26,476 nt of DNA from positions 1-26,476 of the IMG/VR virus record IMGVR_UViG_3300037133_000007; one strand, given 5' to 3'. The number at the start of each line of letters is the position of its first letter. Within the stretch, counting starts at the first letter, position 1. The translations under genes and the position numbers were made by a program. Positions 8,291-9,141 of this stretch are shown piece by piece. The stretch comes from a virus. The notes below the pieces were generated by a model that saw only the letters and a program-made list of their open reading frames with translations, made no database searches and was not told the origin of the DNA.

Positions 8291-9141
8291 TTACAGGCCC
8301 TTCATTCCACCCAACATTGGGAGGATAGTCTCAAAGTATACGTTCTCTATCCAATAGACCCATCCGATGTATTCGAGGAATGGTCTGCTTTCAGCTTCAG
8401 AGGGACTAATGCCAAGGACGAAGCCGATGTAGGGGTAGAAACCCCAGAGTTCTTCTGGATCTCCGTGGATAAGCTTGCCCCATCGGAAGGCAAAGGAGGG
8501 TCCACTTGCTTGTTCTCATCTGACAACAGTACTTGCAGCAGCTCAGGCGCCTCGGGCTCCTCGGGCTCCTCGGGCTCCTCGTAATCAAACGAGTCTATTA
8601 GAGCCCCAGCAGCTAGATCTATATTAGCCGGCAAAGGGATAGATTTATCAGTCAGCCCACCCCATGCCACCCATGCCATACAAGCTAGAGCATCAGGATC
8701 TCCACGGAATATAGCAACTGTAAATCGCACGAGGCTACCAATAGACGGGTACCATCTCTTGATTTGCTTTAGAGTCTTATAGGTAAGATCCTTCTCAATG
8801 TCGAAGACTTCCTCATTACCATTCAATGTTAATCGAATGGGCGGCACTCTCTGTATGGTTGTAGGTACTCCATCACTGACAAAGGATCCCATAACTTCGC
8901 CCACTGAGAAATCAGGGAAGTTCGTGGGATCCTTTATTTTCTTACCAGCCTTGCGGTGGGCAATCCAAATAAGGCACGCTAGTGCATCAGGGTCGCCAAG
9001 AGAGGCAGCTATAGTGAAAGCTTGGTAATCCCCCAGATCGGGGAACCAGCCTTTGATGTTACGAAGTTCAGTTAAGCCAATGTCTCGCTCTGGCGAAAAG
9101 CTAAGCTCCTCGCCTTTAAAAGTAAAGGTACTTGCGGGCAT
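8291..9141 (-). CDS. Tail assembly chaperone, long product by -1 ribosomal frameshift
   Basis: The -1 frame is open from just after a TGA at 8516-8518 to a TAA at 8291-8293 and encodes convincing protein. Downstream of about 8480 it reads KLIHGDPEELWGFYPYIGF, then a helical segment FLEYIGWVYWIENVYFE and an end MLGGMKGL. This is aromatic-rich and structured, unlike the Ser/Thr-rich zero-frame tail. Known tail chaperone genes of siphoviruses make such an extension by programmed frameshifting. The slip must lie between about 8515 and 8477. I see no canonical A-rich heptamer; a G run in GATGGGGCAAG (8484-8474) is the best visible candidate. The long form would be about 283 residues, ending four bases before the next gene. 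A sequencing error is an alternative but unlikely explanation. Confidence 0.75.
8347..9141 (-). CDS. Tail assembly chaperone, short (zero-frame) product with duplicated domain
   Basis: The 264-residue zero-frame product follows the major tail protein, where siphoviruses encode tail assembly chaperones that coat the tape measure during tail assembly. Residues 5-88 and 102-185 are clearly related to each other. Both contain an LKxIKxWxP-like segment (LRNIKGWFPDLGDY and LKQIKRWYPSIGSL), then AFTIA or RFTVA, then GDPDALAC. An acidic EEPEEPEEPE run (188-197) follows. The last 43 residues are Ser/Thr-rich and look like out-of-frame sequence. The start at 9141 has an AAAGGAAAAG ribosome binding site and is preferred over an in-frame ATG at 9216 that lies in the major tail gene. 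A longer product by -1 frameshifting is listed separately. Confidence 0.85.
   Translation of the reverse strand: MPASTFTFKGEELSFSPERDIGLTELRNIKGWFPDLGDYQAFTIAASLGDPDALACLIWIAHRKAGKKIKDPTNFPDFSVGEVMGSFVSDGVPTTIQRVPPIRLTLNGNEEVFDIEKDLTYKTLKQIKRWYPSIGSLVRFTVAIFRGDPDALACMAWVAWGGLTDKSIPLPANIDLAAGALIDSFDYEEPEEPEEPEAPELLQVLLSDENKQVDPPLPSDGASLSTEIQKNSGVSTPTSASSLALVPLKLKADHSSNTSDGSIG

Follow-up and report, generated by a model that had tools for sequence, protein, structure and literature searches.

Tail assembly chaperones of tailed phages show low sequence similarity to one another as a normal property of their class (PMC5009743). In the λ model, gpG binds the tape measure protein and gpGT connects to the tail subunits (PMC5009743). 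In Streptomyces phage phiC31, gp41 and gp42 are annotated as joined by ribosomal slippage. The imperfect slip motifs that the PRFect paper describes for actinobacteriophages include one named 'twoonefour', i.e., two like bases, one other base and a run, and where these motifs are discussed its authors state that G:U pairing does not explain most of them (PMC10885494). Other annotators have reported chaperone genes without a recognisable slip site (PMC9670969).

Here, we compare with these systems a pair of overlapping genes, G and T, of an uncultured tailed phage. The window, i.e., the whole stretch of DNA analyzed, is a virus record of 26,476 bases. We conclude that G and T are very probably a tail assembly chaperone pair of the λ gpG/gpGT type, produced via programmed −1 frameshifting. 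The features of the locus are as follows:

9161..10297, minus strand: putative major tail (tube) protein, upstream of G (weak matches and synteny)
8347..9141, minus strand: G, zero-frame chaperone-like protein of 264 aa (homologues in ten relatives, with one or two domain copies)
8497..8503, minus strand: proposed slip heptamer G_GAC_CCT (aligned in relatives, identical in ten phiC31-type phages)
8347..8496, minus strand: zero-frame tail of G past the slip, Ser/Thr/Pro-rich (protein-level constraint not detectable)
8461..8488, minus strand: counterpart of the relatives' hairpin, UUCCG.AUGG...CCACGGAG (weak in the window)
8291..8515, minus strand: T, a −1 frame extension of 74 codons without a usable start codon (ORF, conservation and predicted model)
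7874..8287, minus strand: 137-aa gene between T and the tape measure gene (no family match)
4528..7737, minus strand: putative tape measure protein of 1069 aa (homology to a gene of relative L034)

G and T lie among putative tail genes

On the minus strand the genes are ordered putative major tail protein, G, T, the 137-aa gene and putative tape measure, so that G and T have the major tail protein gene on one side and, past one additional small gene, the tape measure gene on the other. This order supports the tail-gene context assumed in the first-pass annotation. The 7737–4528 product is a putative tape measure protein by way of a relative: it matches the L034 gene at the equivalent place (BLASTP, E 9e-10), and the L034 gene matches Pfam PhageMin_Tail (E 3.4e-15). 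The assignment of the 10297–9161 product as a putative major tail protein is less firm. Its match to Pfam Phage_tube_2 is weak (E 0.014, below the cut-off), and tblastn remotely matches its L019 homologue with the major tail protein from Shawty, a Streptomyces phage (E 5e-3). The 137-aa gene looks tail-completion-like in its general appearance. An actinobacterial host is likely, because the large terminase is closest to those of phages of actinobacteria (<60% identity).

The annotated phage collection, searched by nucleotide, by G and by the major tail protein, returned no match, and no prophage carrying the major tail protein was found in 84,980 genomes. Neither G nor T had a family match in PHROG or Pfam, and a PDB sequence search returned none. 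G is therefore named a chaperone from its gene order and frameshift, with no known chaperone profile matched.

Several other features of the window were recorded. An HNH endonuclease gene (10302–10667, minus strand; PHROG 2255, E 5.9e-24) lies immediately upstream of the major tail protein gene; L009 has an HNH endonuclease gene at the equivalent place (4420–4809), in L019 and L037, the major tail protein gene and G are separated by a different HNH-like ORF. An ORF running off the window end (2–628, minus strand) encodes collagen-like Gly-X-Y repeats (GATGPTGP...), and a further GATGATGAGATG-type stretch is found in ORF 24942–25505. A 1017-aa ORF without a PHROG match (17614–20667, minus strand) lies between the portal gene (20667–22079) and the prohead protease region. 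The short ORF 22076–22270 (minus strand) includes ADAFSKTFAGQVAEARAELHNLG, which is almost identical to ADAFSKTFAGQVAESRAELHNFG of the tape measure protein (4528–7737), possibly a local duplication or a fragment.

G contains two copies of one domain

G consists of two tandem copies, 38% identical to one another, of a domain with W(F/Y)P..G..GDPDALAC. Two-copy homologues are found in L009, L015, L028, L059 and L075, and one-copy homologues in the more distant relatives L019, L033, L034, L035 and L037. These sequences indicate an internal domain duplication within the G of the window's group.

AlphaFold gave a fair model of the first G domain (pLDDT 83, pTM 0.73) and a mediocre, mostly helical model of T (mean pLDDT 74, pTM 0.53). 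Foldseek found nothing convincing in the PDB; against viral models it returned weak matches, some of them named tail assembly chaperones. T carries GDPEELW, and T was considered as a third copy of the G domain; this is unproven, the profile comparison aligning nine residues only (E 0.054).

A heptamer is conserved at the start of the overlap

The aligned zero-frame codons at the start of the overlap are:

window: GTG GAC CCT CCT
L008: GTA AAC CCT CCT
L015: GAG GAC CCT CCG
L028: ATG GAC CCC ACT
L059: ATG GAC CCT CCT
L075: GTG GAC CCT CCT
L034 and L037: GCG GAC CCT ACC
L019: CCG GGC CCT ACG
L035: CCA AAC CCT ACG
L033: CCA AAA AAG GGA

The heptamer takes the form N_NRC_CCY in the relatives, with the exception of L033 (A_AAA_AAG). 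G_GAC_CCT itself is present in the window, L015, L059, L075, L034 and L037, and the variants are A_AAC_CCT, G_GGC_CCT and G_GAC_CCC. In the coding sequence of the fetched loci, the in-frame background is 1.3e-4 per codon for G_GAC_CCT and 6.6e-4 for the class X_XRC_CCY.

The first-pass annotation had seen no canonical slippery heptamer here. This holds for the strict X_XXY_YYZ form in the window, from which G_GAC_CCT is one base off; the strict form is found in L008 and L035 (A_AAC_CCT), L019 (G_GGC_CCT) and L033 (A_AAA_AAG). Members of the gpG/gpGT type without a strict heptamer are among those that the PRFect paper describes, so its lack was not taken to exclude the window pair from this class (PMC10885494). 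GGACCCC of L028 fits the name 'twoonefour', whereas GGACCCT of the window has three C residues, not four, and falls outside the motif as named in that account (PMC10885494). Searching the literature for phage slip sites with GGACCC found nothing relevant.

In the window, the zero-frame codons are GAC (8502–8500) and CCT (8499–8497), and after a slip they would read GGA CCC, followed by TCC. On GGA, tRNA-Asp would form a U:G pair at the middle position and be mismatched at the third. The base that precedes the first heptamer codon is identical to the first base of that codon in every family, as expected if two tRNAs slip together.

GT could also arise by slippage of the proline tRNA alone, from CCT to CCC in the P site and without tandem slippage on GAC, the A site being empty or occupied by CCT/ACN during the slip. 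C_CCY is present at the site in all families but L033, and re-pairing is perfect from CCT to CCC and imperfect from GAC to GGA. Tandem slippage, however, would select precisely the repeated first base that is seen in G_GAC, A_AAC and G_GGC, and L033 has a classical tandem site, A_AAA_AAG. We consider slippage of a single tRNA rather unlikely, and tandem slippage on the heptamer is retained as the preferred reading.

The −1 frame is the conserved frame of the overlap

A TGA at 8518–8516 (minus strand) bounds the −1 frame upstream, and a TAA at 8293–8291 ends T. T reads EQASGPSFAFRWGKLIHGDPEELWGFYPYIGFVLGISPSEAESRPFLEYIGWVYWIENVYFETILPMLGGMKGL, is ∼20% aromatic and stops 3 bases short of the ATG of the next gene (8287). 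It overlaps G in the −1 frame over ∼50 codons. No ATG, GTG or TTG occurs in T before its last ten residues, so T would be made only by extending G or by way of an atypical start.

All 851 bases of the locus are identical in two other contigs, and the overlap layout is kept in five diverged families (L008/L009, L015/L016, L028–L031, L059 and L075). The distant relatives L019, L033, L034, L035 and L037 combine a single-domain G with a −1 extension that has the motif GDP(A/D)EL. Because the same DNA was found in two other assemblies and the layout is kept in five diverged families, the G/T overlap is neither an error nor a product of chance.

Pairwise amino acid identity across the overlap averages 0.63 for the −1 frame among the six close families, compared with 0.46 for the zero frame and 0.44 for +1, the unused frame. 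Substitution rates over the −1 ORF are 0.31/0.24/0.47 at −1 codon positions 1/2/3, and conservation of the −1 frame extends up to the heptamer. The zero-frame tail is conserved to the same level as the unused frame (0.39 vs. 0.42 past the first 13 codons), is only 11 codons long in L059 and is shortened by a nonsense codon in L016. These data show that purifying selection acts on the −1 extension and not on the zero-frame tail, since the −1 frame is conserved and the zero-frame tail behaves as the unused frame and is shortened in two relatives. The single base by which L016 differs from L015 from 7678 on creates the zero-frame stop and changes Glu to Val in the −1 frame.

The first-pass annotation had described the aromatic-rich −1 ORF from 8515 to the TAA at 8291 and had called the Ser/Thr-rich zero-frame tail non-functional in appearance; the first description was confirmed and the second supported. 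The alignment with related phages that it had proposed as a check found the −1 arrangement kept, with the −1 frame as the conserved one.

Translational coupling is frequent in phage tail operons, and T might be a separate protein that is initiated by coupling at a non-standard start codon rather than fused to G. Against this, the standard start codons are missing from T ahead of its last ten residues, and conservation of the −1 frame reaches the heptamer, which a separate start would not require. We regard a separate T as very improbable; production of T as a frameshifted extension of G remains the favored reading.

RNA structure and the G run downstream of the heptamer

In five relatives a strong hairpin (−19.4 to −22.5 kcal/mol, z −3.3 to −4.5 vs. 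shuffles) lies 3–6 nt past the heptamer, and in four of the five no other 42-nt window across the gene region is as stable. Covariation of the hairpin in a fixed register was not significant, because the pairing register varies between families, and an Rfam search returned no match. By its energy and position, the hairpin is a candidate stimulator in the relatives. Such a role is doubtful in the window phage, where the counterpart (−9.1 kcal/mol, z about 0) folds no more stably than shuffled sequence.

The slip had previously been placed, with some reserve, at the G run in GATGGGGCAAG. GGGG is indeed a homopolymer run, and it lies within the open −1 stretch. None of the five close families, however, conserves the run, which reads GATGGAATAAG, GATGGAAAAAG, GGTGGCGAAAG, GATGGAACGCC and GATGGGAAACC in them; it falls inside the downstream hairpin region of the relatives, ∼25 bases past the conserved heptamer; and a slip from GGG GCA to TGG GGC would re-pair poorly. 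Slippage at this run is extremely improbable. Single-base slips at three places (the second CCT, TTG CCT and the G run) were rejected on account of poor re-pairing or lack of conservation.

The heptamer is identical in phiC31-type phages

G_GAC_CCT, as C(C/G)GGACCCTACC, was found in the chaperone overlap of each of the ten phiC31-type phages examined (phiC31, phiBT1, TG1, Shawty, Euratis, Sebastisaurus, RemusLoopin, Lilbooboo, Samora and Heather). Shawty is the closest named phage by the major tail protein. The window and the phiC31 group have in common a tail chaperone ORF, a −1 extension and the heptamer. The slip site, previously thought to be possibly of a novel type, is therefore not wholly new. 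In contrast to the window, in the phiC31 group the zero frame ends a few codons past the slip. There the heptamer is followed by ACC, the chaperone ORF lies directly before the tape measure gene and an HK97 gp10-like gene lies ahead of G, whereas the window has its small gene between T and the tape measure gene.

A profile comparison of G with phiC31 gp41 (hhalign) was not significant and detected no sequence relation; likewise, G and T of the window did not match phrog_17335, which phiC31 gp41 matches at 2.6e-50. Since the G proteins of the two groups lack a sequence relation, the heptamer that they have in common is either ancient or arose on two separate occasions.

A −1 extension without its own start codon would also be expected if one continuous ORF had been broken by a base change, either false (a sequencing error) or real (gene decay). 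However, the DNA is identical in two further contigs, eleven families, named phages included, keep this frame relation, and purifying selection acts on the −1 frame; this explanation is practically negligible.

Discussion

The overlap, the conserved −1 frame, the start-less T and the conserved heptamer support the −1 frameshift and G/GT arrangement of the first-pass annotation. From them we infer the occurrence of the slip, its exact position and frequency, and the chaperone role. Under programmed −1 frameshifting, the majority of ribosomes would translate G (9141–8347) and finish in the Ser/Thr-rich tail. A minority would slip back one base on G_GAC_CCT (8503–8497), with tRNA-Asp moving from GAC to GGA with imperfect re-pairing and tRNA-Pro moving from CCT to CCC with full re-pairing. 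Reading would then continue as ...QVDP-SFAFRWGK... until the TAA at 8291, for a predicted GT of 283 aa. If the analogy with λ holds, the G part would attach to the tape measure protein, the T part would bring in the major tail protein, and neither G nor GT would stay in the finished tail.

The window pair resembles λ gpG/gpGT in gene order and in a −1 shift that would add a T domain to a minority of the chaperone. Unlike λ, it has an imperfect slip heptamer, a duplicated G domain and a longer overlap (∼50 codons).

We tentatively propose that G_GAC_CCY may form a −1 slip heptamer class of its own, under selection in actinobacteriophages. It would be kept in unrelated chaperone genes, those of the window family and of the phiC31 group, for a set low level of frameshifting on actinobacterial ribosomes even though the first tRNA re-pairs imperfectly, and in the window phage it would act with little help from a hairpin. 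We see this idea as possible, at somewhat less than even strength.

The novelty is modest: the family is a new one of an already known type, and its imperfect heptamer also occurs in phiC31. These data suggest that (i) an uncultured phage family without a match in the family libraries searched can be added to those with frameshifted tail chaperones; (ii) automatic annotation would miss gene G and its T extension, because those libraries hold no match; and (iii) G_GAC_CCT, kept from the window family to phiC31, is a candidate for the unnamed imperfect slip sites reported by actinobacteriophage annotators.
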